DNA of 57,742 nt. Source: Propionivibrio sp. Its GTDB lineage: Bacteria; Pseudomonadota; Gammaproteobacteria; Burkholderiales; Rhodocyclaceae. The notes under the pieces are model-generated. The model ran no database searches, had not been told where the DNA came from, and saw nothing but the letters and a program-made list of their open reading frames with translations. Below are positions 5,131-30,133 of the stretch, one piece after another (positions within the stretch are counted from its first letter, which is position 1; every line of letters begins with the position of its first letter). The stretch is taken from NCBI RefSeq assembly GCF_029255185.1, contig NZ_JAPUVO010000075.1:1-57742 (forward strand), in the 5' to 3' direction. Made by a program: the position numbers and the translations under genes.

Positions 5131-5152
5131 CGCGACAGCGGATACATTGTCC

Positions 5153-5197: not shown

Positions 5198-5291
5198 CCA
5201 ACCTCAGATACAGCCCAAGTATTTAGGGGTGCACGTACTGCAAACGGGGTCATGTACAGTCAAATCCATCTAATCAACCGCGAGCACATCA

Positions 5292-5489: not shown

Positions 5490-5929
5490 TGACCGACGCA
5501 CTGAATCAACTTTCAACAGCCCAGGCCGTGACCACTACGGCATTGTCGACGAACAGTATCGACCTTGGCCCCCAGCCGGCCAATGCCGGCGATCCTTTGG
5601 TCGCCCTGATCACTGTTGATGCCACAGCAACCGCAGCCGGCGCCGCCACGGTCACTTTCCAAGTGGTCAGCTCGGCATCCGCCAACCTGAGCACGCCGAC
5701 CGTGCTGGCGCAGACCGATGCGATTGGCAAAGCCGAACTGGCCGCAGGCCGGCGCCCGATCGGCCTGGAATTCAACTTCAGAAATCTGACGGCCGGCCAT
5801 CGTTACTTGGGCCTGCAATACCTCGTCGGCACCGGCCCACTCACCGCTGGCGCCTTCTCATGCGTACTCACCGATACGACGAACGCCAGCGGCCTGTACG
5901 GCGCCGCTGGCAGCTTCAAGGTCTACTAA
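5486..5929 (+). CDS. Bbp16-family capsid cement (decoration) protein
   Basis: The product has 147 residues. The N-terminal ALNQLSTAQAVTTTALSTNSIDLG block, the GDPLVALITVDATAT strand and the late LGLQYLVGTGPLTAGAFSCVLT strand match the layout of Bbp16-type proteins of Bordetella phage BPP-1 and relatives. These stabilise the capsid shell. It is the only clear virion-structure gene in the element; no major capsid protein is nearby. Tandem start codons (5486 and 5489) follow the upstream overlap. The stop overlaps the next ATG. Confidence 0.75.
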   Translation: MMTDALNQLSTAQAVTTTALSTNSIDLGPQPANAGDPLVALITVDATATAAGAATVTFQVVSSASANLSTPTVLAQTDAIGKAELAAGRRPIGLEFNFRNLTAGHRYLGLQYLVGTGPLTAGAFSCVLTDTTNASGLYGAAGSFKVY

Positions 5930-6618: not shown

Positions 6619-7334
6619 TGGAGATGACCGCCCGCACCAATGCCGAGCTTGCGGCCGACATGTACGGCCCGCAAGCGGACGCGCCCGCCACGCCGCCCGC
6701 GCCTCAGGCCAGCCCCGAGGGGCAGCGCACGGCGCAGGAACTTGGCGAAGCGCTGTATGGCAAGCCGGCAGCGGATCCGACGCAACAGCCTGCCGACGAC
6801 GCCCCAATCGTCAAGCGTACGGACGCGGAACTTGCAACGGCCATGTACCCCGAGCCGGAGGAGCCCGTGGTTCTCGATCCCGTGCCGCCCGATGTGGCGG
6901 CAATCCGCGACGACATTGCACGGCGCCTGTACTCGGCGCAAGACACGTTCGCGGAGGCAATCCCTGACAAGGTGTTCGCCAACGTCGCAGGGCTCGACCC
7001 AGCCGCAGGACGCAAGACCGCGGCTGAACTTCGCGAAATTTCTGCTGACCTGGACCTGGCGCCGCAAGACGTGCAGAAACTGCGCGAGCGCATTACCTAC
7101 GTGCAGACGAATCAGCCGACCGTCGCCGCCCAGTGGGATGAAACCGTGTCCCTGCTGAACGCTGAATACGGCACCGATGCCAAGCAGGCGCTGCGCGACG
7201 CTCGGGCACTGCTACGGCGCGACCCACGTGCGGCACGCGTCATCGAGGCGATGGGCCTGGGCAACGACCCGCAGACCGTGATGATAATCGCCCGGCGCGC
7301 CAGGTCAGCGAAAGGCACGGGAAGGATCAAATGA
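6615..7334 (+). CDS. Phage protein with repeated RTxxELxxxMY short motifs
   Basis: The protein has about 238 residues. Starts at GTG 6615 or ATG 6618 both fit; the ATG is favoured. The N-terminal 95 residues are proline-, alanine- and acid-rich and disordered. They carry three copies of one short motif: RTNAELAADMY, RTAQELGEALY and RTDAELATAMY. A weaker fourth copy is IRDDIARRLY. The C-terminal half is helical and ends in a basic tail. Disordered spacers with repeated short motifs are seen in phage scaffold or adaptor-like proteins that bind several partner copies; that role is inferred here. No family was recognised. Confidence 0.6.
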   Translation: MMEMTARTNAELAADMYGPQADAPATPPAPQASPEGQRTAQELGEALYGKPAADPTQQPADDAPIVKRTDAELATAMYPEPEEPVVLDPVPPDVAAIRDDIARRLYSAQDTFAEAIPDKVFANVAGLDPAAGRKTAAELREISADLDLAPQDVQKLRERITYVQTNQPTVAAQWDETVSLLNAEYGTDAKQALRDARALLRRDPRAARVIEAMGLGNDPQTVMIIARRARSAKGTGRIK

Positions 7335-7354
7335 CGCGTGGATCGGTGGCGTAA

Positions 7355-7765
7355 TTGGAAAAGAAGGCGCCGAACAGGTGGCCCAAGGGCACAAGCGGAA
7401 ACCTCGCCGGCCGGACGCCTGGCGTGGAAAAGGTTCGTCAGTTGCTCGACCCGCACCGCGAGGAGCTTGTCGCCAAGGCTGTTGAAATGGCTATGGCTGG
7501 CGACGGTATCGCATTGCGCCTGTGTCTTGATCGCATATCACCGCCCCCACGCTCAGAATCGCCGCCAGTGAGGATACCGGGGCTTGCCGCAGGCGGAAGC
7601 ATGAGCGACAAGGCCAGGGCCATCCTGGCCGCCGCAGGCAAGGCGCTAATCAGTCCCGATACGGCAACCATGATGCTGGGCGCCATTGCCAACGCGGCCA
7701 AGATCATCGAGGCGGACGAGTTGGCCGACCGCATTACCGCGCTTGAGTCTAAAACCGCGACTTAA
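7355..7765 (+). CDS. DUF5681-domain phage protein
   Basis: A 136-residue protein opens with RWPKGTSGNLAGRTPG, the DUF5681 signature (KpGqSGNpaGrP). This domain occurs in phage and island proteins near small-terminase positions and is thought to bind DNA. An in-frame TAA at 7352-7354 forces the start to the TTG at 7355 (or a later codon), and no strong ribosome-binding site is visible. A helical C-terminal part follows a proline-rich linker (PPPRSESPPVRIPG). Confidence 0.65.
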   Translation: MEKKAPNRWPKGTSGNLAGRTPGVEKVRQLLDPHREELVAKAVEMAMAGDGIALRLCLDRISPPPRSESPPVRIPGLAAGGSMSDKARAILAAAGKALISPDTATMMLGAIANAAKIIEADELADRITALESKTAT

Positions 7766-7777
7766 GGAGCCAGCACT

Positions 7778-8077
7778 ATGACATTGCACACCCGCCTTGC
7801 CAAGTTGGAAAATCGCAAGGGGACCAGCAGAGACATAGCGCGCATGACCGCCGCCGAGATTGAGGCCGAGCTTTACGAATTGTTTATGCCGGAAAGGCTC
7901 GCTGTCATCTATCACTTGGAGCACCCAAACGGACCCTGGGGCGGATTGGTCAAGACCACCAAGACCGTCGAGGACGTCACCTATCAGGACATCTCCGATT
8001 GCGAGGGCGTCGACAGCGAGATTCGAGAGATTGCCAGGGCCCTTGCTGCCGATGAATCGCGCGGCGAGCACCCATGA
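7778..8077 (+). CDS. Hypothetical phage protein
   Basis: The 99-residue, mostly charged protein starts at an ATG with a good AAGGAG site about nine bases upstream. It has no recognisable domain; the N-terminal 40 residues predict helix. The last four bases overlap the next start. Confidence 0.55.
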   Translation: MTLHTRLAKLENRKGTSRDIARMTAAEIEAELYELFMPERLAVIYHLEHPNGPWGGLVKTTKTVEDVTYQDISDCEGVDSEIREIARALAADESRGEHP

Positions 8078-8343
8078 ATCACGCGAAAATCATCAGGTGT
8101 ATTGCGACAAACGACCGAGGTATTGCCATCGGCAAGTATCACCACAACTGCAAGCACTCTGACGAGACCGTCGACAAAATCAGGGACATGCACGAGGTAG
8201 AAGGGATGGGCTATTTACGCATCGCCAACGCGCTCAATTTGTCAAAAAGCACGGTCGCCGTGATTTGCCGGTATGAGCGACGGGCACAGACTTACGGAAA
8301 TTGGAAGACTATCGAGGTGGCGCCAGCAGCGGAGCCTGCGTGA
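8074..8343 (+). CDS. Small HTH protein (resolvase-type helix-turn-helix)
   Basis: The 89-residue product contains EEGMGYLRIANALNLSKSTV-like spacing (MGYLRIANALNLSKSTVAVI), a typical HTH of the Hin/homeodomain-like type at residues about 47-66. The N-terminus has Cys9, His23/24 and His28 with a second Cys, which could bind zinc but is not a clear motif. The start overlaps the previous stop (ATGA). Confidence 0.55.
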   Translation: MNHAKIIRCIATNDRGIAIGKYHHNCKHSDETVDKIRDMHEVEGMGYLRIANALNLSKSTVAVICRYERRAQTYGNWKTIEVAPAAEPA

Positions 8344-8344
8344 T

Positions 8345-8536
8345 ATGCCCCAACCCAAGGCCAGCGAGGGTTTTGCGCATACTGCCGAAGAGGTAGCCGC
8401 CTGGCTGTCTGCGCAAGAGGGGCGAACGGTGACCATCGTTGACGTGTGGAAGATCGAGGCGCAGGCGCTGCGGAAGCTGCGCGCGGAGTTTGCCAGGCGC
8501 CGGATGTCGTCGCGCGACCTGTTGCCGGATCGGTGA
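8345..8536 (+). CDS. Small phage HTH-like protein (sigma-4-like)
   Basis: The protein has 63 residues and starts just after the upstream TGA. HTAEEVAAWL and VDVWKIEAQALRKLRAEFARR resemble the end of sigma-factor region 4, where a recognition helix is followed by a basic ALRKLR helix. It could be a late-gene activator, but the identity is uncertain. Confidence 0.45.
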   Translation: MPQPKASEGFAHTAEEVAAWLSAQEGRTVTIVDVWKIEAQALRKLRAEFARRRMSSRDLLPDR

Positions 8537-8614
8537 CGGATGGGCCTTGACAGGACGCAGATATTTGCCGGATACTTCTCGAACGGTGCTGAACACACCA
8601 AGTCAAAAGCGGCG

Positions 8615-8639
8615 ATCCACCCCGAAGCGTGGATTTTTT
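8615..8639 (+). terminator. Rho-independent terminator
   Basis: ATCCAC (8615-8620) pairs with GTGGAT (8629-8634) around an 8-base loop, followed by a T run ending at 8639. It lies 79 bases after the sigma-4-like gene and ahead of the structured RNA. Confidence 0.6.
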
Positions 8640-8664
8640 GCGCCTGTTGGTTTTTACTCTCAAT

Positions 8665-8745
8665 GGGCGGGTTCGTCAGTCCGTAAGGCTGGCGGCATGA
8701 CTTTTGACATGTGTTCAAAACCCGCCCACCCCCGCATGAACACGG
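8665..8745 (+). ncRNA. Structured phage RNA, candidate C4 antisense RNA
   Basis: A perfect 9-bp closing stem joins GGGCGGGTT (8665-8673) to AACCCGCCC (8719-8727). Inside it are a CAG-T-CC/GGCTG hairpin with a GTAA loop and a CATG...CATG hairpin around ACTTTTGA. A third hairpin, CCCG/CGGG, follows at 8731-8745. Multi-hairpin RNAs of this form sit in short gaps of many temperate phages, and the C4 antisense RNA of P1/P7 represses a downstream gene by pairing near its start. The next gene begins at 8775. The assignment to C4 is from memory of the motif and needs a covariance-model search. Confidence 0.5.
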
Positions 8746-8774
8746 GATTCTGAGACTCATCAAAAGGAGCAATC

Positions 8775-9221
8775 ATGCAAACCAATACCCCCTTGCAACA
8801 CAGGCCGTTCGACTATCGCCCGACGTCGTTACATCCGTTTTACCGCATCGCCCCCGAGGTCGGGCTTGATGAGGTGCACGATTATCTGAATGCGCGACTG
8901 GGCCAACTTTTCGCGCTGCTGGCAACGACTTACGGCGAAGGTGGCGAATCGTTCCGCGCTTGCAACGATGACATTCAAGATGATTACCTGTGGTCATGCG
9001 CTACGCTCGCTGACGAATGCCGTGCGCTGTTCGGACAATTTCCTTATCCCGCAACAGCCAAGCCAGACGGAGGCAAACTGGCAAGCGTATTCGAGCAACT
9101 GAACCAATTGCATCGAAACGGCGTGCTCATCATCAACCCGCAGGCCGTCAAGCATGAAGTCGACGATGCCCAAGGTTTCCTTGATTGGGCGGGCCAGCAG
9201 GCGAAAGGGGGTGCAGCATGA
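8775..9221 (+). CDS. Hypothetical phage protein downstream of the structured RNA
   Basis: A 148-residue acidic protein with a good AAGGAG site nine bases upstream. It is mainly helical, with the core VGLDEVHDYLNARLGQLFALL; no family was recognised. The stop overlaps the next ATG. Its leader contains the candidate antisense RNA, so it is the likely regulated target. Confidence 0.55.
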   Translation: MQTNTPLQHRPFDYRPTSLHPFYRIAPEVGLDEVHDYLNARLGQLFALLATTYGEGGESFRACNDDIQDDYLWSCATLADECRALFGQFPYPATAKPDGGKLASVFEQLNQLHRNGVLIINPQAVKHEVDDAQGFLDWAGQQAKGGAA

Positions 9222-9478
9222 GCGCCGAAACCATCAGCCGCGAAGCCGCGAGCCGTATCAATCCGATTATTGGCAGCCTCTTCACCGAGGACACGCTAGA
9301 GGCAGCAAGTTCTCTGCTCAAGTCGGTCGATGCTTTGATGTTGCAACTAGACGACATAGATGTGCCGGCGTCTGGCCTCTACCCACTCTTCAGCATCATT
9401 GCAGCGGCAATCGACTACGAGAAGGAAAATCCGCGCCTGTCAGGTTGCGGTAGAGCCAAGCAAATAGCGTCGACCTGA
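9218..9478 (+). CDS. Hypothetical phage protein, last gene of the element
   Basis: The protein has 86 residues and starts in the ATGA overlap with the previous gene. It is helical with alternating hydrophobic positions (ASSLLKSVDALMLQL). No domain was recognised. It is followed by a terminator at 9508-9534 and then the tRNA-proximal end of the element. Confidence 0.5.
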   Translation: MSAETISREAASRINPIIGSLFTEDTLEAASSLLKSVDALMLQLDDIDVPASGLYPLFSIIAAAIDYEKENPRLSGCGRAKQIAST

Positions 9479-9507
9479 CCGATGGCCAGGGGTGCGACGA
9501 ACACACG

Positions 9508-9534
9508 ACCGGCTGTAATGGCCGGTTTTCTTTT
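9508..9534 (+). terminator. Rho-independent terminator closing the element
   Basis: ACCGGC (9508-9513) pairs with GCCGGT (9521-9526), followed by TTTCTTTT. It ends the last plus-strand gene of the phage-derived element. Confidence 0.7.
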
Positions 9535-9598
9535 GCATGCGCCGATTGCCGCGCCGGTTCTTTCTCTGGTGCGAGTTGCTTCGTATTGCCCCGCAAAA

Positions 9599-9617
9599 CC
9601 TACACAGTGCCTACACA
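9599..9617. repeat. Tandem CCTACACA repeats, candidate integrase arm-type sites
   Basis: CCTACACA occurs at 9599-9606 and 9610-9617, an 11-base period. The pair sits 55 bases from the tRNA 3' end, where arm-binding sites of a tRNA-targeting integrase would be expected. Function is inferred from position and spacing only. Confidence 0.35.
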
Positions 9618-9630
9618 AACCAGAGACAGC

Positions 9631-9648
9631 AAAAAGCCTCTGCTTTTT
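9631..9648 (-). terminator. Terminator of the tRNA-Met gene
   Basis: AAAAAGC (9631-9637) and GCTTTTT (9642-9648) form a hairpin that on the minus strand ends in a T run, 24 bases after the tRNA 3' end. Confidence 0.5.
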
Positions 9649-9671
9649 ACCGTGGCTAAGTATTTGTTTTT

Positions 9672-9748
9672 TGGTGGTGATGGGCAGAATTGAACTGCCG
9701 ACCTATGGGTTATGAATCCATCGCTCTAACCAACTGAGCTACATCACC
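9672..9748 (-). tRNA. tRNA-Met (anticodon CAT), elongator type
   Basis: The 77-base gene folds as a complete cloverleaf. The acceptor GGTGATG pairs with CATCACC, the D stem is GCTC/GAGC, the anticodon loop TTCATAA carries CAT, and the T arm is GGCAG-TTCAATT-CTGCC. The A discriminator and CCA are encoded. The closing pair of the anticodon stem is an A-C mismatch. The first acceptor base pairs, so it is not initiator tRNA. A CAT anticodon can also belong to tRNA-Ile2 (modified by TilS), but the body looks like betaproteobacterial elongator Met. The 3' end faces the phage-derived element and is its likely attachment site. Confidence 0.93.
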
Positions 9749-9824
9749 ACGTGGGGCGCGAGATTATAGAGTTGCTGGCGCTTTCTGGTCAAGCGTTACA
9801 GTCACACAAGGCACGCAAGCTTGA

Positions 9825-9830
9825 CTATAA
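9825..9830 (+). promoter_or_regulatory. -10 box (TATAAT) directly before an ATG
   Basis: A perfect TATAAT lies eight bases upstream of the ATG at 9838, and no ribosome-binding site is visible between them. If it is the -10 element, transcription would begin at or within a base of the start codon. No convincing -35 is seen at 17 bases. Confidence 0.4.
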
Positions 9831-9837
9831 TGGCGCC

Positions 9838-10194
9838 ATGCCACTACCTGCATCCCTTGTTGCGTCGATCATCAGCGCCATTATTGAAGCCGCGGCGCAG
9901 AACCCTGCGTCGACAACGGCAAAATACGAAATCTATGCCACGACCCGCACGCTGCCGCCTGAAGCCAAGCTGGGCGTCATGCTGCCGCCGCTGGGCGACG
10001 GCATGGTGGTCATCAACGGCCAGCCGATGACGCTGGCGCCGACCGCCCAGTTCCGCAGCCAGCAGAACCTGATCGTCATGCCGATGACCATTCAGGACCA
10101 ACAAGATGTTGTTTTCATCACTGATGCTTCCGGGTCGATTTATCGCGTCTGGATGATCAGCCCGGCCGAGATTTCGGCGCTCCCCAAAAACTGA
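9838..10194 (+). CDS. Conserved hypothetical protein upstream of miaB
   Basis: The 118-residue protein begins [20 protein letters not shown]. It continues as a compact mixed alpha/beta protein with [20 protein letters not shown] and a C-terminal [13 protein letters not shown] strand. No known domain or signal peptide was recognised. It lies ten bases before miaB on the same strand and may be cotranscribed with it. It is the first gene outside the phage-derived element. Confidence 0.7.
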
Positions 10195-10204
10195 CTCGAA
10201 AAAA

Positions 10205-11554
10205 ATGGCAAAAAAACTGTTCATCCGCACTTTCGGGTGCCAGATGAACGAGTACGATTCGGACAAGATGACCGACGTTCTCGCTGCTTCTGAAGACATC
10301 GTCAAGACCGATACCCCGGAAGATGCTGACATCATTCTCTTCAACACCTGTTCGGTGCGCGAGAAGGCGCAGGAGCGTGTTTTTCACGACCTGGGCCGGG
10401 TACGGCTGCTCAAGCTAAGCAATCCCGACCTGGTGATCGGTGTTGGCGGTTGCGTGGCCAGCCAGGAAGGCGCGGCGATTGTCGCGCGCGCGCCTTACGT
10501 GGACGTGGTTTTCGGGCCGCAAACGCTGCATCGCCTGCCGCAGTTGATCGCCGATCGTCGCCGCCTGGGCCGCTCGCAGGTCGATATCACCTTTCCCGAA
10601 ATCGAGAAATTCGACAATTTGCCGCCGGCCAAGGTCGACGGTGCGTCGGCCTTTGTCTCGATCATGGAGGGGTGCAGCAAGTTCTGTTCGTTCTGCATCG
10701 TTCCCTACACCCGTGGCCAGGAAGTTTCACGCCCCTTCGATGACGTACTGACCGAGGTCGCCGGCCTGGCGGCGCAGGGTGTCAAGGAAGTGACGCTGCT
10801 CGGGCAGAATGTGAATGCCTATCGCGGCGCCATGTCGGCCGGTGATGAAAAGGCCGACCTCGCGCTGGTCATTGAATACATCGCTGAAATTCCCGGCATT
10901 GAGCGCATCCGCTACACGACCTCGCACCCACGCGAGCTTTCGCAGCGGCTAATCGATGTTTACGCCGCCGTGCCGAAACTGGTGTCGCACCTGCATCTTC
11001 CCGTCCAATCCGGCTCCGACCGCGTGCTGGCGGCGATGAAGCGTGGCTATACGGCGCTCGAGTACAAAAGTCTGGTGCGCAAGCTGCGTAGCGCGCGACC
11101 GGGGCTCTCGCTGTCGTCGGATTTCATCGTCGGCTTCCCGGGCGAAACTGCCGAGGATTTCGAAAAGACCATGACGTTGATCGACGACGTCGGTTTTGAC
11201 GCATCCTTCTCCTTCCTGTACAGCGCCCGCCCCGGAACGCCGGCTGCCGAGTTGCACGACGACACGCCGCACGCAGTCCATCTCGAACGTCTGATGCGCC
11301 TGCAAAAACGTATCGAGGATCTGTCGCAGACGGTTTCCGAAGCCATGGTCGGCAGCGTTCAACGGGTGCTGGTCGAAGGCCTATCGAAGAAGAACGAAAA
11401 TGAATTGGCCGGGCGTACCGACAACAATCGCATCGTCAATTTTGACGGCGGGTCTGCCAACAGCGCACGCCTGATTCACCGCTTCGTCGATCTGCTGATC
11501 ACCTCCGCCATGCCGCATTCGCTGCGCGGTGAAATCCTGACTCGGGCATCATGA
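10205..11554 (+). CDS. miaB: tRNA-2-methylthio-N6-dimethylallyladenosine synthase MiaB
   Basis: MiaB is a radical-SAM enzyme that adds a methylthio group to i6A37 of tRNAs reading UNN codons, a cytoplasmic reaction. The 449-residue protein has the N-terminal UPF0004 domain with the three auxiliary-cluster cysteines Cys12, Cys49 and Cys83. The radical-SAM motif is Cys157-x3-Cys161-x2-Cys164 in CSKFCSFC, and a TRAM domain is at the C-terminus. Length and motifs are normal. It opens the miaB-phoH-ybeY-corC operon and overlaps the next gene by four bases. Confidence 0.97.
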
Positions 11555-19561: not shown

Positions 19562-22471
19562 ATGCCACAGACCTTCTCCCTGAGCGCACTCGAACAACGC
19601 GACGAGTTCATCTCCCGCCACATCGGCCCCTCGCACGCCGACATCAGCGCCATGTTGTCGGTCATTGGCGCATCCAGCCTGGATGCCCTGATCGAGCAGA
19701 CAGTGCCGGCGGCGATCCGCCTGCCCGCCCCGCTGCCGCTCGCCGATTCCCGACCGGAAGCCGAAGCGCTGGCGGCACTCAAGGTGATTGCCGGCAAAAA
19801 CAGGATCAACAAGTCGATGATCGGCATGGGCTATTCCGACACGCAAACGCCCAAGGTCATCCTGCGCAACGTACTCGAGAATCCGGGCTGGTACACCGCC
19901 TACACGCCCTATCAAGCCGAAATTGCACAAGGCCGACTTGAAGCCCTGCTCAATTACCAGCAAATGGTGATCGACCTGACCGGCCTTGAACTCGCCAACG
20001 CCTCGCTACTCGACGAAGCGACGGCGGCGGCCGAGGCGATGACCATGGCGCGGCGGGTGAGCAAGTCAAAGTCCAATCTTTTCTTCGTCGATGCCGGCTG
20101 CTTCCCGCAGACCATCGACGTAATCAGGACACGTGCGGGCTTCTTCGGCTTCGAACTGATTTTCGGCACGCCGGAAGAAGCCGCACTGCAGGAAGTTTTT
20201 GGCGCCATCTTCCAGTATCCGAACGACGCCGGCGAGATCAACGACTTGACCGACCCGATTGCCGCGGTCAAGTTGCGCGGCGGCGTCGTGGCGGTGGCCA
20301 CCGACTTGATGGCGCTGGTGCTGCTCAAATCGCCGGGCGCCATGGGCGCCGACATTGCGCTCGGTTCGTCACAGCGTTTCGGCGTGCCGATGGGTTTCGG
20401 CGGTCCGCATGCGGCCTTTTTCGCAACCCGTGACGAGTACAAGCGCTCGGTTGCCGGACGCATCATCGGCGTGTCCGTCGATACCCGCGGCAACAAGGCG
20501 CTGCGCATGGCGCTGCAGACACGTGAGCAGCACATCCGCCGCGAAAAGGCCAACTCCAACATCTGTACCTCGCAAGTGCTGCTCGCCAACATGGCCGGCA
20601 TGTACGTGGTTTATCATGGGCCGCAGGGGCTACGCGCCATTGCCGAACGCATCCACCGGCTGACCGCTATCCTCGCCGAGGGACTCAAGCGCGCTGGCAT
20701 CGAGCTATTGACCAGGAACTTCTTCGACACCCTGCACATCAACCTTGGCACTCGCGCACTCACCGTCTACCAGGCGGCACTCGGCGCCGGCTATAACCTG
20801 CGCCAGGTCGGCAGCGGCATCCTCGGCATCGCCTTCAATGAAAAATCAACGCGCGACGATGTCGTCATGCTGATCAAACTGATTGCCGGCATCACGATGG
20901 ATATCGAAGCCTTCGATGCACAAATCCAGCAACTCGATACCGCCTTGCCGGAGGCGCTGCGGCGTACCGACGCCGTTCTCACGCATCCGGTCTTCAACAG
21001 CTACCACACCGAACACGAGATGCTGCGCTACCTCAAGCGCCTGCAGAACAGAGATCTGGCGCTTGACCATGCGATGATCTCGCTTGGCTCGTGCACCATG
21101 AAGCTGAACGCCACCAGTGAAATGATTCCGGTCACCTGGCCAGAATTTGGCGACATTCATCCCTTCGCTCCGCTTGATCAGGCACAGGGCTACATGGAAA
21201 TGATCAGTGAGCTGGAAAGCTGGCTCAAGCTCATCACCGGCTTCGATGCGATCTGTATGCAACCAAACTCCGGAGCGCAAGGCGAATATGCCGGAATCGT
21301 AGCCATCACCCGCTATCACGCCAGCCGTGGGGATAGTCAGCGCAACATCTGCCTGATTCCGAAGTCGGCGCATGGCACCAACCCGGCAACAGCGCAGATG
21401 TGCGGCCTGCAGATCGTTGTTGTCGATTGCGACGACAACGGCAACATCGACCTTGCTGATCTCACGGCCAAGGCCGCACAGCACGCTGCCAAACTGGCCT
21501 GTCTGATGGTCACCTACCCGTCGACACACGGTGTCTTCGAGGAGTCGATCAAGGACATCTGCGCGATCATCCACGCCCATGGCGGCCAGGTCTATATGGA
21601 CGGCGCCAACCTCAACGCCCAGGTCGGCCTCACCTCACCCGGCGCCATCGGCGCCGACGTCAGCCACATGAACCTGCACAAGACCTTCGCCATTCCGCAC
21701 GGTGGCGGCGGTCCGGGCATGGGTCCGATCGGACTGAAGGCACATCTGGCGCCGTTTATGCCCGACCATGCTGTGCAGCCAACCGACAGCGCGGCGCGTA
21801 CACAGCGCGGACACGGTGCTGTTTCCGCCGCACCCTGGGGCTCGGCGTCTATCCTGCCGATCTCGTGGATGTACATCGCCATGCTGGGCGGCAAGGGCCT
21901 CATGCGCGCCACCGAAGTGGCAATCCTCAACGCCAACTACGTCGCCAGCCGTCTTAACGCGCTCTACCCGGTGCTGTACACCGGCAAGAACGGCCGCGTC
22001 GCTCACGAATGCATTCTCGATATCCGCCCCATCAAGGCTAGCACTGGCATTGCCGAGATCGACATCGCCAAGCGCCTGATGGATTACGGTTTCCACGCAC
22101 CAACGGTAAGTTTCCCGGTGGCCGGAACGATCATGGTTGAACCGACCGAATCGGAATCAAAAGCCGAACTTGACCGCTTCATCGCGGCGATGACGGCCAT
22201 CCGCGAGGAAATCGGCAAGATCGAACAGGGCGCGTGGCCGGCGGACAATAATCCACTGAAGAATGCTCCGCATACCCAGGCCGACGTCGTCGATGCCAAC
22301 TGGAACCGTCCGTACAGTCGCGAAGAAGCCGTTTTCCCGTTGCCCTGGGTTGCCGCCAATAAGTTCTGGCCGAGCGTCAACCGCATCGACGACGTTTATG
22401 GTGACCGTAACCTCTTCTGCGCCTGCGTGCCGATGAGTGAATATGAACAAACATCGACAATCCACTCTTGA
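19562..22471 (+). CDS. gcvP: Glycine dehydrogenase (decarboxylating), P protein
   Basis: GcvP is the PLP-dependent glycine decarboxylase of the glycine cleavage complex. The 969-residue protein is the single-chain form with both half-domains. The PLP lysine is Lys707 in MNLHKTF, followed by the glycine-rich loop [12 protein letters not shown]. The N-terminal MGMGY and YTPYQAE motifs are also clear. The start at 19562 is the first ATG before [18 protein letters not shown]. Confidence 0.96.
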
Positions 22472-22504
22472 ACTTTTCACCAGATTTCGCTGATCAGACA
22501 CACG

Positions 22505-22888
22505 ATGTGCAACAAGAACTCGACACGCCAGATTCGCCTTTATCTGCTCGGCGCCTGCATCCTGTTTGCCGGATTGTTGGGCGCTGTGGCGATCTATGTG
22601 ACAGCGTCTGATGACAACAGCAATGCCATCGCTTATGAAATAGTCAATGGCGAAGCCTACGCCATCATGGCGTATGAATCCAAGAGCTATCGCCATGACC
22701 TGGAGCGCTTTGGCGGCAAGGCGGCGGTTATGGCGGATGACTTCAACCGCTGGTTTTCCGGTTTATGGATGGGAAAACGGCTGGCCTACACCCTGGCCGT
22801 GCTCGCCACTGGAATCGCCCTGGGCTGCTTCGTGGCGGCCCGCCGATTGTCCAACCATCGCCCGCTCGGCGAGGACCGGGACGGCTAA
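22505..22888 (+). CDS. Small membrane protein with two transmembrane segments
   Basis: This 127-residue protein has hydrophobic helices at about 10-32 and 96-113, with a short periplasmic loop between them. Residues in the loop are mostly polar and include a conserved-looking YESKSYRHDLERFGGK. No family name is recognised. It lies 33 bases after gcvP and may be cotranscribed. Confidence 0.6.
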   Translation: MCNKNSTRQIRLYLLGACILFAGLLGAVAIYVTASDDNSNAIAYEIVNGEAYAIMAYESKSYRHDLERFGGKAAVMADDFNRWFSGLWMGKRLAYTLAVLATGIALGCFVAARRLSNHRPLGEDRDG

Positions 22889-22939
22889 AACGCGCGGACC
22901 GGGCCTTGCACCAGACGCAATTTCGCTGAGGCTGTCGCC

Positions 22940-23272
22940 ATGGACCTACTCGATCTTCTCGGGCTTTTACTGCTGGCCGCTGGCGGCTGGCTCTGGCATG
23001 ACAGCCTCACAGCTCGCGAAATAGCGGTGTCGGCGACCAAAGCGGCCTGCAACTCCGAGGGCCTGCTGTTGCTCGATGATACCGTTGCCATCCAGCGCAT
23101 CAGCCTGATGCGGGATGGCGAGGGGGTCTTGCGTGTCCGTCGCATCTATGATTTTGAGTACAGCGATACGGGCAACGATCGCAGCGCAGGAAGCATCGTC
23201 ATGCTGGGAAGCCGCGTGCTCGTGATCAACCTCAATCTGCCAAACACTCCACCGCGTGCAGTTCTTCACTAA
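22940..23272 (+). CDS. DUF3301-type membrane-anchored protein
   Basis: The 110-residue protein has one N-terminal transmembrane helix (LLDLLGLLLLAAGGWLW). A beta-rich domain follows with a central CNSEGLLLLDDTV strand and a FEYSDTGNDRSAG strand, as in DUF3301 proteins. The function is unknown. It is the last gene before the restriction cassette. Confidence 0.7.
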   Translation: MDLLDLLGLLLLAAGGWLWHDSLTAREIAVSATKAACNSEGLLLLDDTVAIQRISLMRDGEGVLRVRRIYDFEYSDTGNDRSAGSIVMLGSRVLVINLNLPNTPPRAVLH

Positions 23273-23287
23273 CTGCCCGGCGAGGCA

Positions 23288-23321
23288 GGCGACTGTTTCC
23301 GCCTTTGCCGGCGCAGTCGCC
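23288..23321. terminator. Hairpin after the DUF3301 gene
   Basis: GGCGACTG (23288-23295) pairs with CAGTCGCC (23314-23321) across an 18-base loop. No T run follows, so its value as a terminator is doubtful. Confidence 0.3.
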
Positions 23322-23384
23322 AGATTTCGAGTCAACGCGGGTGCTTATGCTGTTACGATAACGGCATTCCGGAAATCAAATATC

Positions 23385-23409
23385 GAGGGCAGAGATCCTG
23401 ATCTGCCTC
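23385..23409 (+). promoter_or_regulatory. Imperfect palindrome just before the restriction gene
   Basis: GAGGGCAGAGATC-CT-GATCTGCCTC is an inverted repeat with two single-base bulges, ending 13 bases before the ATG at 23423. It could be an operator or an RNA hairpin hiding a weak ribosome-binding region (no clear AGGAGG is present). Confidence 0.35.
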
Positions 23410-23422
23410 AGAAAAAACGCCA

Positions 23423-26400
23423 ATGAGTAAGCAGTTTTTCGAGAAGCCGATCCTCAACTCGCCCTACGACTATCCCTCGCGCCACTGGGAACTCGATGAC
23501 ACGGGGCAGCCGACCCAGAAAGTCGCGGAGAGCCGTCGCCGAGCGGAGTTCATCACACCGATCCCGAAGGCAAAAAAACAGAAGTCAGCTCAAAAGCAGG
23601 ACTCGCTGCTATTTGACGAAGGCCTTTCCACCCAATCCCAGCAGTATGCCCATACGGCAATCATCAATGGCGTTCGGCAGGAAGTAGATAAGTGGCGCAG
23701 CCTGCCCAGCGCCAGCGATTGGCGTGTCACCCCCGAAACGGCTCGCCTTCTCCAGCATTGGCGGCACCACAAGTTCGGCAGCATCCGTCCTTTTTTCTGC
23801 CAGGTAGAAGCCGTTGAGACGGCTATCTGGCTAACGGAGGTGGCTCCCCAGGTTGGCAAAACCGGTGAACGGTTTCTGGAGCATCTGGCCGACGCCAACC
23901 CCGAGATCATGCGGCTGGCGCTAAAGCTTGCAACTGGAGCCGGCAAGACAACCGTTATGGCCATGCTCATTGCGTGGCAAACCATCAACGCGGCGCGTCG
24001 GCCCAACAGCAAAAAGTTCACGCGGGGCTTTCTCATCGTCTCGCCGGGCCTGACGATCAAGGATCGCCTGCGCGTTCTACAGCCAAACGACCCGGACAGT
24101 TACTACGCCAGCCGTGAGTTGGTTCCCGGCGACATGATGAATGATCTTGAGCGCGTCAAGATCGTCAATACCAACTACCACGCCTTCAAGCTGCGTGAGC
24201 GCATCGAGATTTCCAAGGGTGGTCGCCTCCTTCTTCAGGGGCGTGGCGGTGAGGAACTGAACACCCTTGAAACCGAAGGGCAGATGATTCAGCGCGTCAT
24301 GCCTGACCTCATGGGCATGAAGAACATCCTCGTCATCAACGACGAAGCGCACCATTGCTACCGTGAGAAGAAAAATCACGACGACGCGGATGATGTTTCC
24401 GATCTGAAAGGTGACGAGAAAAAAGAGGCAGAACAAAACAGCGAGGCGGCCCGCTTGTGGATATCCGGCATCGAGGCCGTCAACCGCAAGCTCGGCGTGG
24501 CGCGGGTACTTGACCTGTCTGCAACGCCATTTTTCTTGAGCGGTTCCGGTTACGCCGAGGGCACCTTGTTCCCCTGGACCATGAGCGACTTTTCGCTGAT
24601 GGATGCCATCGAATGTGGAATCGTCAAGCTGCCGCGCGTGCCGGTGGCCGACAACATTCCGGGCGGGGAAATGCCCAAGTTCCGCAACCTGTGGGAGCAC
24701 ATCGGCAAACGCATGCCGAAAAAAGGCCGTGGTCAGGCCAAGACGCTTGATCCGCTGAGCATCCCCGTAGAACTCCAGACCGCGCTGGAAGCCCTCTACG
24801 GCCACTACGAGAAGACCTACAAACTCTGGGAGCAAAGCGGCATCAAGGTGCCGCCATGCTTTATCGTCGTCTGCAACAACACCTCGACCTCCAAGCTGGT
24901 TTATGACTTCATCTCCGGTTTTCAGCGGCAGAACGATGACGGCTCATCGACGCTGGAGAACGGGCGCTTGGCGCTGTTCCGCAACTTCGATGAACATGGC
25001 AACCTGCTTGGTCGACCACGCACCCTGCTGATCGACAGCGAGCAACTGGAATCCGGTGATGCCTTGGACGATAGTTTCCGCAGCATGGCCGGTCCCGAGA
25101 TCGCGCAGTTCCGCAGTGAAATCTTTGAACGCGGCGGCAGGCTTGCCGATGAACTGCGGGCTGGCAAGGAACTGGACGACGCGTCACTGCTGCGAGAAGT
25201 CATGAATACCGTCGGCAAACCAGGCCGGCTGGGCGACTCCATCCGTTGTGTGGTGTCGGTTTCGATGCTCACCGAAGGATGGGACGCCAACACCGTGACC
25301 CATGTGCTGGGCGTGCGCGCCTTCGGCACCCAGTTGCTGTGTGAGCAGGTCATTGGCCGCGCGCTCCGCCGCCAGTCCTACGAACTGAATGAGGAAGGTC
25401 TGTTCAACGTCGAATACGCCGATGTCCTCGGCATTCCTTTCGACTTCACCGCCAAACCAGTCGTTGCTCCGCCGCAGCCGCCACGCGAAACGATTCAGGT
25501 CAAGGCCATACGGCCAGACCGCGACGTGCTGGAAATTCAGTTTCCGCGTGTGCAAGGCTACCGTGTTGAACTACCCGAAGAACGGCTGACTGCCGAATTC
25601 AACATCGACTCGGTGCTGGAGCTCACGCCCGACCTGGTCGGGCCGTCCATTACCCAGAATTCCGGCATCATCGGCGAGTCCGTCAATCTCAGCCTGACCC
25701 ACTTGGGCGACATGCGCCATTCCACGCTGCTGTTTCACATCACCCAGCGGCTGCTCTACACCAAATGGCGTGACCCCGGCGAAGAAGCCAAGCTTTACCT
25801 GTTCGGGCAGCTCAAACGCATCACCAAACAATGGCTCGACACCTGTTTGGTGTGTAAAGGCGGCACCTATCCGGCGCAGCTCATGTATCAGGAACTGGCG
25901 GACATGGCCTGCGAACGCATTACCGCCGGCATCACGCGGGCACTGGCCGACGAGCGCCCCATCAAGGCCGTGCTTGATCCGTATAACCCAACGGGTACAA
26001 CAGCGCACGTCAGTTTCAACACCTCCAAGATGGATCGTTGGGAGACGAACGGGCCGCCGCCCAAGTGTCACCTCAACTGGGTCATCCTTGACAGCGACTG
26101 GGAAGGTGAATTTTGCCGTGTCGCCGAATCGCATCCACGCGTCAAGGCGTATGTCAAAAACCACAACCTCGGACTGGAAGTACCGTACCGGTATGGCTCG
26201 GAAACACGCCACTACCGCCCCGACTTCGTTGTGCTGGTCGATGATAAAGGCGGCGACGAAGACCCCTTACACCTGATCGTCGAAATCAAGGGCTATCGGC
26301 GCGAAGACGCCAAAGAGAAAAAGACCACCATGGACACCTACTGGGTGCCGGGCGTGAACAACCTCAAACAATATGGCCGCTGGGCGTTTGCCGAGTTCAC

Positions 26401-26488
26401 CGAGGTCTATCAGATTGAGTCCGACTTCGCGAAAAAGGTCGCGGCAGAATTCAACAAAATGATCGAAAGGATTGCCCATGAAAACTGA
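23423..26488 (+). CDS. Type III-like restriction endonuclease subunit (BPTD_3080 type)
   Basis: The 1021-residue protein combines a superfamily 2 ATPase with a nuclease. Walker A is ATGAGKT (residues 170-176), motif II is DEAH (307-310) and motif III is SATPF. A second RecA-like half carries LTEGWDANTVTHVLG and EQVIGRALRR. At the C-terminus is a PD-(D/E)xK nuclease core with Asp934 in PDF and Glu954-x-Lys956. This is the layout of Res subunits that cleave after ATP-driven translocation or sliding. It is the first gene of a res-dinD-mod operon and overlaps dinD by 11 bases. The target sequence cannot be predicted. Confidence 0.88.
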   Translation: MSKQFFEKPILNSPYDYPSRHWELDDTGQPTQKVAESRRRAEFITPIPKAKKQKSAQKQDSLLFDEGLSTQSQQYAHTAIINGVRQEVDKWRSLPSASDWRVTPETARLLQHWRHHKFGSIRPFFCQVEAVETAIWLTEVAPQVGKTGERFLEHLADANPEIMRLALKLATGAGKTTVMAMLIAWQTINAARRPNSKKFTRGFLIVSPGLTIKDRLRVLQPNDPDSYYASRELVPGDMMNDLERVKIVNTNYHAFKLRERIEISKGGRLLLQGRGGEELNTLETEGQMIQRVMPDLMGMKNILVINDEAHHCYREKKNHDDADDVSDLKGDEKKEAEQNSEAARLWISGIEAVNRKLGVARVLDLSATPFFLSGSGYAEGTLFPWTMSDFSLMDAIECGIVKLPRVPVADNIPGGEMPKFRNLWEHIGKRMPKKGRGQAKTLDPLSIPVELQTALEALYGHYEKTYKLWEQSGIKVPPCFIVVCNNTSTSKLVYDFISGFQRQNDDGSSTLENGRLALFRNFDEHGNLLGRPRTLLIDSEQLESGDALDDSFRSMAGPEIAQFRSEIFERGGRLADELRAGKELDDASLLREVMNTVGKPGRLGDSIRCVVSVSMLTEGWDANTVTHVLGVRAFGTQLLCEQVIGRALRRQSYELNEEGLFNVEYADVLGIPFDFTAKPVVAPPQPPRETIQVKAIRPDRDVLEIQFPRVQGYRVELPEERLTAEFNIDSVLELTPDLVGPSITQNSGIIGESVNLSLTHLGDMRHSTLLFHITQRLLYTKWRDPGEEAKLYLFGQLKRITKQWLDTCLVCKGGTYPAQLMYQELADMACERITAGITRALADERPIKAVLDPYNPTGTTAHVSFNTSKMDRWETNGPPPKCHLNWVILDSDWEGEFCRVAESHPRVKAYVKNHNLGLEVPYRYGSETRHYRPDFVVLVDDKGGDEDPLHLIVEIKGYRREDAKEKKTTMDTYWVPGVNNLKQYGRWAFAEFTEVYQIESDFAKKVAAEFNKMIERIAHEN

Positions 26489-27320
26489 GATTGTCCACTC
26501 GCTGACTAACACTTTTGAAGCACACGCCCAACAGACTGAAGGCGGTATCGAATACTGGCTCGCGCGCGACATCCAGCATCTTCTCGGCTATACCAAGTGG
26601 GACAACTTTCTGAATGTCGTCTACAAGGCAAAAACCGCTTGTGAAATCTCGGGGCATGCGGTTCCCGATCATTTTGCCGACGTCGGCAAAACGATCGCCA
26701 TGCCGAAAGGCGCGGAGAAGGAAGTTCCCGACATCATGCTTACCCGCTACGCCTGTTACCTCGTTGCGCAGAACGGTGATCCAAAGAAACAGGAAATCGC
26801 TTTTGCCCAAACCTACTTCGCCATCCAAACCCGCCGCGCCGAACTGATCGAGCAACGCTTGCTGGAAAACGAACGTGTTTCAGCCCGCAAGAAACTGACC
26901 GAAACCGAGAAAGAACTCTCTCAGGTCATCTACGAGCAAACCGGCGGCAATCAGGATTTTGCGACCATTCGCAGCAAAGGTGATCGGGCGCTGTTTGGGA
27001 AAACCACCCAATCGATGAAAGCCCAATGGAAAGTGCCGGATAGCCGGCCGCTCGCCGACTTTGCCCCCACCATCATCCTCAAGGCCAAGGATTTCGCCAC
27101 GGAAATCACCATTTTCAACGCCAGAGAGCACAGCCTGTCCAGCGAAACCGCCATTTCCAGCGAACACATTGCCAACAACGAGGCCGTCCGCCAAACCCTG
27201 CTCGAACGGGGTATCCGGCCGGAGAGTCTGCCCGCTGCCGAGGACGTGAAAAAGGTCGAGCGCCGCCTTGTTTCCGAAGAAAAGAAATCCTTGAAGAATC
27301 CCGACGCGCTGGACGCCTGA
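26478..27320 (+). CDS. dinD: DNA-damage-inducible protein D (DinD)
   Basis: DinD of E. coli is an SOS-induced protein that blocks RecA strand exchange. This 280-residue homologue has the family opening (GGIEYWLARDIQHLLGY, a Bro-N-like fold), the DIMLTRYACYLVAQNGD core and a QTYFAIQTRRAEL helix. The ATG at 26478 is preferred; an upstream TTG at 26472 would add two residues. It lies inside a restriction-modification operon, overlapping the res gene and ending five bases before mod. No SOS box was identified upstream of it. Confidence 0.88.
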   Translation: MKTEIVHSLTNTFEAHAQQTEGGIEYWLARDIQHLLGYTKWDNFLNVVYKAKTACEISGHAVPDHFADVGKTIAMPKGAEKEVPDIMLTRYACYLVAQNGDPKKQEIAFAQTYFAIQTRRAELIEQRLLENERVSARKKLTETEKELSQVIYEQTGGNQDFATIRSKGDRALFGKTTQSMKAQWKVPDSRPLADFAPTIILKAKDFATEITIFNAREHSLSSETAISSEHIANNEAVRQTLLERGIRPESLPAAEDVKKVERRLVSEEKKSLKNPDALDA

Positions 27321-27325
27321 TCGAC

Positions 27326-30133
27326 ATGGCAAAAAAACCAAACCAAACGCTCACCGTCGAAACCCTCAAGCACGACGACGCCACGCGCAAGAACATCCCC
27401 ACCGCCGAATATCAATCGGTGATGCAGAAGGAAGAGCAAAACCCGGTTCGTGTCGCTTACCAGCGCCGCAATCGCGATCTTGACCCGCAACTCGTCTGGC
27501 GCGGCAAGGATGAGCAGGACTGGTCTGATCTGGTGGTGCACGCGCCGCCGCTCTATATCCAGGAAAAGGTGCACCCCAAGGTGCTGATCGACGACCTGAA
27601 ACGACAGACGGATCAGGCCGCAGCAGGCAAAGCGAGCAATCAGCAAGGATTTACCACCGACCTTTTCGCCGATTTCAACGGCCTGCCCGACGACAACGCC
27701 AAAACCGAGTTCTATCAGCACGACGCCCACTGGGCCAATCGCATGATTCTCGGCGACAGCCTGCAAGTCATGGCTTCGCTTGCAGAGCGCGAAGGACTGC
27801 GCGGCAAGGTGCAGTGCATCTATTTCGATCCGCCCTACGGCATCAAATTCAACAGCAACTTCCAATGGTCAACCACCAGTCGGGATGTGAAGGACGGCAA
27901 CGCCGCCCACATCACCCGCGAGCCGGAGCAGGTCAAGGCGTTTCGGGATACGTGGCGCGATGGCATTCACTCCTACCTCACCTATTTGCGCGACCGACTC
28001 ACCGTGGCGCGGGATTTGCTGGCCGACACGGGCTCGATCTTTATTCAGATTGGTGATGAGAATGTGCACCGAGTCAGGGCTGTGATGGACGAGGTATTTG
28101 GAGAGAAAAATTTCGTCAGCCTCATCTCAATACAAACCACAACTGGGTTTAAGACAAATTACATCGGAAACATCGCTGATTATGTCTTGTGGTTCGCGAA
28201 GGACAAACCAACTGGTAAATCGCGTTCCCCGTTCTATCGCAAAAGTTTTGAATTGGGCGAGGGCAATGCGCGCTGGCTTCTACTCGACGACTTTACCTAT
28301 CGCGGTGTTTCAGCAGCCGAGAAACGCGGAGAAAGTCCAGTTCCGGCGGAGGCGCTGCCCTATGCGCCAGACAACATTATTTCGCAAGGTCGTGCCAAGG
28401 AGCCTCAACCCTTCGAGTTTCGCGGGAAGCACTATGATTGTTGGGATAAGAATTCGCACTGGAAAGCATCCTACCCCTCAGGCATGACCCGCTTGGCCAA
28501 GGCCTCGCGAATACATGCCGCCGAAAATTCAATCCGCTATGTGCGGTATCACACAGACTTTGCGCTTGGCATTCATGGCAATGTTTGGACCGACACCGGA
28601 TCGGGAAACTTCACCGATGACAAGGTCTACGTCGTACAAACCAATACCAAAGTCATAGAGCGCTGCATCTTGATGGCGAGCGACCCCGGTGACCTCGTTC
28701 TTGACCCCACTTGTGGTTCCGGCACCACCGCCTATGTCGCTGAACAATGGGGTCGCCGCTGGATCACCATCGACACTTCCCGTGTCTCTCTTGCCCTGGC
28801 TCGTGCTCGCATCATGGGTGCTCGCTATCCCTATTTCCTCCTTGCAGATAGCAGTGATGGCCAGTTCAAAGAAGCGGAAATCAATGGCACGGTCCCGTCT
28901 AGCGCTCCAACGCGCGGCAGTATTCGCCAAGGCTTTGTCTATGAGCGGGTGACGCACATCATGTTGGAAACCATCGCCAACAATGCCGAAATCGACGTAA
29001 TCTGGGACAAGTTCCAGCAAACGCTGGAGCCACTGCGTGAACGACTCAACCTGGCGTCAAGCAAGCAATGGCAGGAATGGGAAATCCCCCGTGATGCCGA
29101 TAGCAAATGGACTGAAGCGACGAAGAAGCTGCACGCCGACTGGTGGCAGCAACGCATCGCCCGCCAGAAAGAAGTCGACGCCTCCATCGCCGCCAAGGCC
29201 GAGCACGAATACCTCTACGACAAGCCCTACGAGGACAAGAAGAAAGTCCGTGTCGCCGGCCCGTTCACCGTCGAAAGTTTGTCGCCGCACCGCGTTTTGG
29301 CCGTGGATGAAAACGACGAGCTGATCGACCGTGCCGCTGAACCAGAAGCAGGCTACGGTGAGGAACGCGATTTCGTTCAGATGATTCTGGAAAACCTCAA
29401 AACCGCAGGCGTGCAACAGGCGCACAAGGAGGACAAGGTTGCTTTCACGTCGCTAACGCCCTGGCCGGGCGATCTGGTCTGTGCCGATGGTCGTTTTGAG
29501 GATGCTGGCGGCGAAAAACGCGCCGCCATTTTCATCGGCCCCGAGTTCGGCACCGTTTCCCGCCCTGATCTGGTCGCTGCTGCCCGCGAGGCAGGCGACG
29601 CCGGCTTCGATGTGCTGATTGCCTGCGCCTTCAACTACGATGCTCACTCGTCGGAGTTCGACAAGCTTGGCCGCATCCCCGTGCTCAAGGCGCGCATGAA
29701 CGCCGATCTGCACATGGCCGCCGACCTCAAGAACACCGGCAAGGGCAACCTGTTCGTCATCTTCGGCGAGCCGGACATCGACATCCTGCAAGCCGATGGT
29801 GGGCAGATTCGCGTCAAGGTGAACGGCGTCGACGTATTTCACCCCAACACTGGCGAAGTCCGCAGCGATGGCGCTGAAGGCATTGCCTGCTGGTTCATCG
29901 ACACCGACTACAACGAAGAAGCCTTCTTCGTTCGCCACGCCTATTTTCTCGGCGCCAACGATCCCTACAAAGCCCTCAAAACCACGCTCAAGGCAGAGAT
30001 CAATGAAGAGGCATGGGCATCGCTCAACAGCGATACCTCTCGTCCGTTCGACAAACCAACGTCAGGGCGAATTGCGGTGAAGGTCATCAATCATCTTGGG
30101 GATGAGGTGATGAAGGTTTTCAAAGTTATCTGA
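27326..30133 (+). CDS. Type III-like adenine-specific DNA methyltransferase (Mod)
   Basis: The 935-residue protein should N6-methylate adenine in the recognition site and guide the Res subunit. The catalytic motif DPPYG is at residues 168-172 and the SAM-binding DPTCGSGTT at about 460-468. This catalytic-first order with the recognition domain between them is that of beta-class enzymes, including Type III Mod. The last 370 residues form an extra domain, longer than in typical 600-700-residue Mod proteins. It starts five bases after dinD. Confidence 0.88.
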   Translation: MAKKPNQTLTVETLKHDDATRKNIPTAEYQSVMQKEEQNPVRVAYQRRNRDLDPQLVWRGKDEQDWSDLVVHAPPLYIQEKVHPKVLIDDLKRQTDQAAAGKASNQQGFTTDLFADFNGLPDDNAKTEFYQHDAHWANRMILGDSLQVMASLAEREGLRGKVQCIYFDPPYGIKFNSNFQWSTTSRDVKDGNAAHITREPEQVKAFRDTWRDGIHSYLTYLRDRLTVARDLLADTGSIFIQIGDENVHRVRAVMDEVFGEKNFVSLISIQTTTGFKTNYIGNIADYVLWFAKDKPTGKSRSPFYRKSFELGEGNARWLLLDDFTYRGVSAAEKRGESPVPAEALPYAPDNIISQGRAKEPQPFEFRGKHYDCWDKNSHWKASYPSGMTRLAKASRIHAAENSIRYVRYHTDFALGIHGNVWTDTGSGNFTDDKVYVVQTNTKVIERCILMASDPGDLVLDPTCGSGTTAYVAEQWGRRWITIDTSRVSLALARARIMGARYPYFLLADSSDGQFKEAEINGTVPSSAPTRGSIRQGFVYERVTHIMLETIANNAEIDVIWDKFQQTLEPLRERLNLASSKQWQEWEIPRDADSKWTEATKKLHADWWQQRIARQKEVDASIAAKAEHEYLYDKPYEDKKKVRVAGPFTVESLSPHRVLAVDENDELIDRAAEPEAGYGEERDFVQMILENLKTAGVQQAHKEDKVAFTSLTPWPGDLVCADGRFEDAGGEKRAAIFIGPEFGTVSRPDLVAAAREAGDAGFDVLIACAFNYDAHSSEFDKLGRIPVLKARMNADLHMAADLKNTGKGNLFVIFGEPDIDILQADGGQIRVKVNGVDVFHPNTGEVRSDGAEGIACWFIDTDYNEEAFFVRHAYFLGANDPYKALKTTLKAEINEEAWASLNSDTSRPFDKPTSGRIAVKVINHLGDEVMKVFKVI

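Follow-up and report, generated by a model that had tools for sequence, protein, structure and literature searches.

What does a dinD gene do between the two genes of a restriction-modification (R-M) system? The question is raised by three genes on contig NZ_JAPUVO010000075.1 of Propionivibrio sp. (assembly GCF_029255185.1), which was analyzed as a single stretch of 57,742 nucleotides, hereafter the window. Open reading frame (ORF) calls place res (23423..26488), dinD (26478..27320), and mod (27326..30133) on the plus strand in a tightly packed array. The first two genes share 11 bases (26478-26488), and 5 bases (27321-27325) separate dinD from mod. An earlier note, made from the sequence alone, had described this coupling and had taken DinD to be built into a Type III-like restriction system. 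The coordinates were reproduced from the ORFs, with catalytic motifs present; the built-in DinD did not hold up. Comparison of gene content across related loci showed the guest between res and mod to be interchangeable, with DinD as one of many contents.

A search for relatives of Res found 381 loci. The best 80 were analyzed, and the counts lean toward the window’s kin. The interval between res and mod (26467..27326 in the window, plus strand) is referred to as guest slot 1. In 30 of the 80 loci, res and mod lie within 150 bases of each other, whereas 45 carry an insert and 5 have no readable mod. Two of the 45 inserts (L023, L077) contain no clear gene. DinD occupies the slot in four loci (L007, L017, L028, L078), leaving 76 of 80 without DinD there. 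Guests were labeled by Pfam matches of representatives and by BLAST clusters, and PIN-type genes were identified by eye; ORF choice in this slot favored the operon strand, making guest orientation a biased count. The Pfam names include DUF4062 with HATPase_c_4, AlbA_2 with HATPase_c_4, Bro-N, Fic, YhcG, 23S IVP, ORF6N, GmrSD_N, DUF3800, ASCH, AAA with subtilase, helicase, and Gp49 with HTH. GmrSD-like guests were found in L039 and L148, and the slot gene of L050 has no Pfam match. Other genes thus take the place of DinD, and DinD itself is also found in other R-M types. A DinD essential to the system is ruled out by the 30 loci in which res and mod are adjacent.

An even draw of 299 Pseudomonadota genomes served as a counterweight sample. 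Res scored over the cut-off in 22 of them, and 17 slots were readable. The remaining five were unreadable due to a contig end (G113), a mod that was not found (G105, G065), or a distant relationship with mod upstream (G209, G122). Fifteen of the 17 slots are filled, and DinD is present in two, those of the window and genome G145. DinD recurs in the slot in both samples (4 of 80 Res relatives; 2 of 17 in the even draw), but the slot is mostly empty or taken by another gene. DinD beside a BPTD_3080-type Res is not confined to this genome, the case that the earlier note had set as refuting its reading. All three genes occur in the order res-dinD-mod in L017, L028, L078 (mod truncated by the contig end), G145, and L167, a contig from a viral collection. 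L007 shows res and a partial dinD only, with no mod seen. An arrangement unique to the window is ruled out by these five three-gene loci and L007. In L167 (IMGVR_UViG_647000304, 1918-10835), res (68%), dinD (76%), and mod (64%) are followed by a partial helicase gene at the end of the stretch.

Slot content was mapped on a Res tree, built with FastTree only from 81 rows. Seventy-five rows were labeled after four unreadable and two gene-less loci were dropped. The content changes at least 39 times over the 75 labeled rows, compared with a mean of 43.3 in 300 shuffles, one of which was as low. Changes are nearly as many as in the shuffles; thus, little inheritance of slot content is left. DinD accounts for five separate changes for its five rows, the window included. 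Scored as filled versus empty, the slot changes 20 times (shuffle mean 23.6; 21 of 300 as low).

The nearest relative, L004, has a Res that is 94% identical to that of the window. Nucleotide homology between the two (blastn) is confined to 23322-30126 on the plus strand, the extent of the cassette they have in common, with none beyond these ends in L004. The homology is broken at two places, 26467-27326, which is the guest slot, and 28068-28638, which encodes approximately residues 248-437 of Mod. L004 holds a Bro-N guest in the slot instead of dinD, and the recognition region of its Mod is also different. The L004 stretch is without gcvP and paaK. In the congeners G650, G651, and G658, paaK-ACT is retained, and the 1.5 kb upstream contained nothing that matches res, dinD, mod, or gcvP. 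These alignments mark the cassette as an insertion, and we read the locus as a mobile Type III-like R-M cassette of the BPTD_3080 kind.

Family models and motifs agree with the earlier note that a DinD homologue is flanked by a Res-type helicase-nuclease and a beta-class methyltransferase. Res (1021 aa) belongs to NCBIfam NF046055 (restr_BPTD_3080), with 1363 bits against a curated cut-off of 800. It matches Pfam ResIII and RE_endonuc and combines an SF2 motor with a C-terminal PD-(D/E)XK nuclease, with motifs GAGKT at 172, DEAH at 307, RPDF at 932, and EIKG at 954. The PADLOC REase_III model gave only 18 bits, and a phmmer search of Res against the PDB found no match at E up to 0.1. Mod (935 aa) matches Pfam N6_N4_Mtase, and the PADLOC MTase_III model PDLC03632 spans residues 46-934. 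DPPY at residue 168 precedes DPTCGSG at 460, which we take to be the beta-class order. The hypervariable region (28068..28638, plus strand; approximately residues 248-437) falls between these motifs and is likely the target-recognition region of Mod.

Across 58 full-length Mods, identity to the window protein is 84-99% at residues 126-250, 16-38% at 276-425, and 69-93% from 601 onward. The recognition region, which would read the target, is low in identity also between several Res sisters that are 97-99% identical. Among such pairs, L057 and L011 have the same guest and recognition regions that are 48% identical; L057 and L026 have different guests and recognition regions that are 29% identical. 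A close pair, L046 and L045, retains the recognition region (94%). The guest and the recognition region are therefore not swapped in lockstep, since pairs with the same or different guests both vary and others keep the region.

The C-terminal part of Mod (28838..30130, plus strand; residues 505-935) is conserved and has no assigned function. A helix pair is predicted near its start. The earlier note had described about 370 residues here as a C-terminal extension with no assigned role. They are covered by the family model, and this coverage, together with the conservation over 58 Mods, rules out a part specific to this Mod. The AlphaFold model of the C-terminal part is weak (pLDDT 49.5), and its profile found no convincing relative in the PDB (best E 0.037, an unrelated protein). 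The EcoP15I-type C-terminal domain PF18273 was not found in the window Mod at E 0.01 but is present in the Mod of L164. In five loci (L014, L022, L032, L053, L056), Mod carries an insertion of approximately 140-170 residues at the same place, near residue 820-834.

A third gene usually accompanies Res and Mod. A UvrD-like helicase of approximately 690 aa lies 3' of mod in 40 of the 46 loci whose sequence extends 5 kb or more past mod, and in 47 of 59 in which the end of mod is seen. On two plasmids it is annotated as a 3'-5' exonuclease. Of the 14 even-draw cassettes whose mod end is intact, 12 have the helicase, the exceptions being the window and L147 (2.8 kb examined); it was not found in L153, whose mod is broken. 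In the window, no UvrD-like helicase was found, and its own genome (G000) gave only partial matches of 27 and 24 bits, none full-length. None was found in L004 within the 6.3 kb examined. The usual BPTD_3080 core consists of Res and Mod plus the UvrD-like helicase, which is absent from the window copy. PADLOC gave no system name for this three-gene core among the matches listed. Likewise, no Hma-named match to Res, Mod, or the helicase was seen with the Hma (helicase, methylase, ATPase) models among the matches listed (the best 25 of 52 for Mod, and the best 25 of 40 and 25 of 34 for two helicases). The example in L125 (11968-14061) has its best PADLOC match, 94 bits, to a model of NERD with UvrD.

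The helicase lies within 150 bases of mod in 8 of 47 loci, and the gap is longer in the other 39. The same comparison of gene order indicates that this interval is a second guest slot. Its ORFs were picked strand-blind, and 78 of 82 are on the operon strand. An AAA ATPase gene stands 3' of mod in L006, L012, L017, L035, L045, L072, and L083 and between res and mod in L042. It is followed by a subtilase-like gene in all these loci except L035; thus, the AAA/subtilase pair is found in both slots.

DinD is not restricted to this cassette type. The window protein (280 aa from the ATG taken as start; a TTG 6 bases upstream is also possible) belongs to NCBIfam NF008573, with 377 bits over a cut-off of 242. 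Pfam finds only a Bro-N domain (residues 22-113). It matches the PADLOC model PDLC04919 (PDC-S13) with 381 bits, and the Bro-N guest of L004 matches PDLC04920 with 414 bits. The N-terminal part of PDLC03083 (Specificity_I) also matches the window DinD. A survey of two overlapping samples, 299 and 370 genomes, gave 27 distinct DinD places over the family cut-off, with lower matches dropped. Sixteen lie inside R-M operons or at their edges, one is at a CRISPR-Cas I-F locus, nine are elsewhere, and one (G093) lies at a contig end and was left unassigned. The 16 comprise three places of G000 and one each of G077, G073, G006, G001, G145, G138, G472, G596, G509, G634, G334, G497, and G303. Their hosts are Type I systems, Type III-like systems, a mod-DinD-res arrangement with the EcoP15I domain, and an N6 methyltransferase-DinD-Mrr arrangement. 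DinD is the first gene in G138 and in G000 contig C134, which were counted as operon edges. The three DinDs of G000 are those of the window, of a Type I operon on C39, and of C134, where genes for an AAA ATPase, a methyltransferase, and a ResIII protein stand downstream of DinD. Within the 299-genome sample, an N6 or N6/N4 methyltransferase lies within 5 kb of 8 of 16 DinD places, or of 5 of 13 without G000. The baseline, 90 N6 and N6/N4 methyltransferase matches in 61.4 Mb from 15 genomes, puts approximately 1.5% of random places within 5 kb of one, and the observed share exceeds this chance level. On the evidence of its neighbors, DinD is a recurrent guest of defense operons. The CRISPR-Cas I-F locus carries DinD; thus, DinD-type guests extend beyond R-M operons.

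Several of these loci have further features. The Type I operon on C39 (L084, 2928-11717) has the order hsdM, Bro-N, DinD, hsdS, DUF3800, hsdR, with three extra genes. DinD is immediately before hsdS in five of eight Type I loci (G000 C39, G077, G073, G006, G472) and not in G596, G509, or G334. At the CRISPR-Cas I-F locus (L158, G498 contig C8, 2145-11324), a WYL-domain gene precedes DinD, and DinD and a Bro-N gene lie upstream of Cas2-3 and Csy1. Stand-alone DinDs are apparently inserted in conserved operons in L165 (9246-11134) and L120 (7615-10910), where the neighbors, identified by eye, are rimM/trmD and ureC/ureE. Among seven DinDs examined on plasmids (of 35 records), two adjoin ParA-family genes, and two others or the same lie near a DEAD/DEAH helicase gene. 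The plasmid DinDs of L131 and L134 stand by ParA and ParB (Thiothrix fructosivorans) and by ParA and a hypothetical gene (Flammeovirgaceae bacterium), respectively.

A DinD tree, from which sequences under 240 aa were left out (L118, L119, L123, L007), places the window protein in a clade of eight with 100/99 support. Five members are guests between Res and Mod, two are from Type I systems, and one lies upstream of a Type III-like methyltransferase. E. coli DinD is 39% identical to the window DinD and lies beyond the longest inner branch of the tree. DinD is under constraint, with dN/dS of 0.06-0.14 where computable and dS near or at saturation.

The predicted fold of DinD suggests an activity. 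An AlphaFold model of the window protein (46 sequences) has a mean pLDDT of 90 and a pTM of 0.70. In a Foldseek search of the PDB with this model, the six best matches are DdrC, which binds damaged DNA in the radiation-resistant bacterium Deinococcus radiodurans (PDB 7udi, 8u0g, and 7qvb among them). Five have E values of 4.6e-5 to 9e-4 and one of 0.022; the next match, at 0.03, is unrelated. The structural alignments run over 237-249 columns. Two overlapping DinD profiles match the same three DdrC entries with their C-terminal part (approximately residues 131-246), at E 0.0014-0.0051. These profiles share rows, and they and the model rest on related alignments and are not fully independent. 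A phmmer search of DinD against the PDB found no match at E up to 1. The window DinD is predicted to consist of a Bro-N domain plus a DdrC-like fold. Bro-N guests share the C-terminal part of DinD (hhalign probability 90.6, E 1.3e-6). DdrC binds DNA, both single- and double-stranded, and gives it shelter from nucleases; it also circularizes linear DNA and anneals strands (PMC5436757). Its homologues are described there as confined to Deinococcaceae.

The explanation that we favor is that DinD is a swappable accessory of the R-M cassette, an added layer of defense acting on broken DNA, and we give this function an even chance of being the right one. Cassette content turns over at three places: guest slot 1, the second guest slot 3' of mod, and the part of Mod that likely recognizes the target. 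Given the gene overlap, DinD would be translated in step with res and mod, and it would probably not be a subunit of the restriction enzyme. It may bind the ends, nicks, or single-stranded DNA left after cleavage of an invader by Res or another nuclease. Bound DinD would hold the broken DNA and hinder its repair or replication, and infection would fail even where cutting alone would be mended. A broader version, which we hold tentatively and consider more apt to fail than to stand, makes DinDs a wide family of DdrC-like broken-DNA binders recruited repeatedly by several types of defense operon. In BPTD_3080 cassettes, DinD would then sit on ends made by Res and block recombinational rescue, a second stage of restriction housed in a hot-swap slot of the three-gene core.

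Several observations weigh against an accessory that acts on broken invading DNA. The relation to DdrC is remote, with 14-17% identity, TM scores of 0.29-0.38 by query and 0.38-0.48 by target, and rmsd of 10.8-12.7; the large rmsd indicates that the domains are placed differently in the two proteins. A PDB search with a profile built from the Bro-N guests did not return DdrC. DdrC protects DNA, which by analogy would fit guarding self as well as trapping invaders. Nine of the 27 DinD loci are outside defense operons (G206, G023, G053, G262, G210, G011, G592, G625, G614), counting as outside G592, which has a Type I operon approximately 2 kb off on the other strand, and G023, which has a 41-bit HsdM-like remnant beside DinD. 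DinD relatives also occur on viral contigs (302 stretches), and none of the seven plasmid DinDs has an R-M-named neighbor in the incomplete gene table. DinD thus has other lives. Finally, the position of DinD before hsdS, together with a reported DinD-HsdS fusion, could reflect physical association of DinD with the specificity subunit.

A DdrC-like fold could instead serve the host, where DinD would protect chromosomal breaks or gaps from an R-M system that cuts poorly methylated self DNA and so lower the cost of the cassette. The shielding, end-bridging, and annealing activities of DdrC (PMC5436757) are in keeping with such a guard, and a host whose cassette acquires another recognition region would face new sites that are not methylated. 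However, 30 of 80 loci do without a gene in the slot, and other guests, such as Fic, YhcG nuclease, and GmrSD-like proteins, do not resemble protectors. We consider a host guard unlikely, although present data do not separate host protection from invader trapping by DinD. It is less probable still that DinD regulates the operon through a Bro-N domain that senses infection or damage. Bro-N domains are known from phage antirepressors. The domain’s presence in DinD, the relatives on viral contigs, and the WYL-domain gene ahead of DinD at the CRISPR locus would suit a regulator. Nevertheless, a middle gene that overlaps res has no intergenic space for its own promoter, and empty slots are common. 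In addition, no LexA-type box (CTGT-N8-ACAG, at most one mismatch; the LexA motif of the host itself may differ) was found in 19704-27134.

According to the earlier note, a DinD integral to the operon could limit RecA-mediated repair after cleavage or pass a damage signal to the nuclease. E. coli DinD, to which the window protein is homologous, is said to inhibit RecA (Uranga 2011, as cited in PMC10602874), and both the gene overlap and the recurrence of the arrangement would be expected of a component. Nonetheless, the low share of DinD in both samples shows that the family does not need it, its five rows on the Res tree are five separate changes, and the E. coli protein is distant. We give this proposal little credence. 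A DinD that is not a component may still restrain RecA, which would overlap with the favored reading of a swappable accessory acting on broken DNA.

The comparison gives a testable scheme, in which a widespread R-M family keeps a core of motor and methylase but exchanges both the region of target recognition and the accessory gene beside it. Sister cassettes such as those of the window and L004 form natural pairs in which the contribution of an embedded guest can be compared. The resemblance to DdrC suggests a biochemical activity for DinD, and perhaps also for the Bro-N guests, whose C-terminal part it shares. The embedding of DinD-type genes in defense operons is already known (PADLOC PDC-S13), as are embedded defense genes in R-M operons. 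As far as the literature was searched, four results are new: the analysis of swaps in the BPTD_3080 slot, the UvrD-like helicase as a third core gene, a DinD clade that spans R-M types, and the relation to DdrC. The search found no paper naming BPTD_3080. Within the text available, only PMC4996451 joins DinD and restriction-modification, and only one 2013 review names both DdrC and DinD. DinD is otherwise treated mostly as an SOS reporter or RecA inhibitor in the portions of the literature at hand.

Type III enzymes recognize two asymmetric sites in inverse orientation and cut 25-27 bp from one of them. With classical Type III systems such as EcoP15I, the window cassette has in common a beta-class Mod with a central variable region and a Res with an SF2 motor and C-terminal PD-(D/E)XK nuclease. 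However, the classical order is mod-res and Mod carries PF18273, whereas the window has the order res-mod, PF18273 was not found in its Mod at the threshold given above, and its relatives mostly have a UvrD-like helicase. DinD resembles DdrC in a fold match and a weak profile match over its C-terminal part, and differs in its low identity and domain placement. Attachment of DinD to an R-M system is also seen in Btr190I, a Type I system in which dinD is fused to hsdS and methylation still works (PMC4996451); in the window, DinD is a separate gene beside the mod of another R-M type. PrrC, like DinD, is encoded by an accessory gene within an R-M operon, the Type IC operon of EcoprrI (PMC3710099, PMC12707154). 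Unlike PrrC, a tRNA nuclease kept inactive by its R-M partner, the window DinD has only Bro-N by Pfam and is not known to contact a partner. Defense genes are embedded in R-M operons also in the case of TgvAB, which is itself an anti-phage system and lies within a Type I operon of Vibrio cholerae (PMC11411939), and of DarTG2, which lies within one of E. coli (PMC12255303). These two are phage-tested, whereas the window has a DinD guest in a Type III-like host predicted from sequence. A further precedent is PDC-S13, whose models match both the window DinD and the Bro-N guest of L004. PADLOC PDCs are single-gene candidates from “guilt by embedding” (PMC12988326, citing Payne 2024, a preprint). 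The part of that source available gives no mechanism for PDC-S13, to which the relation to DdrC, the analysis of swaps, and the BPTD_3080 slot are added here.

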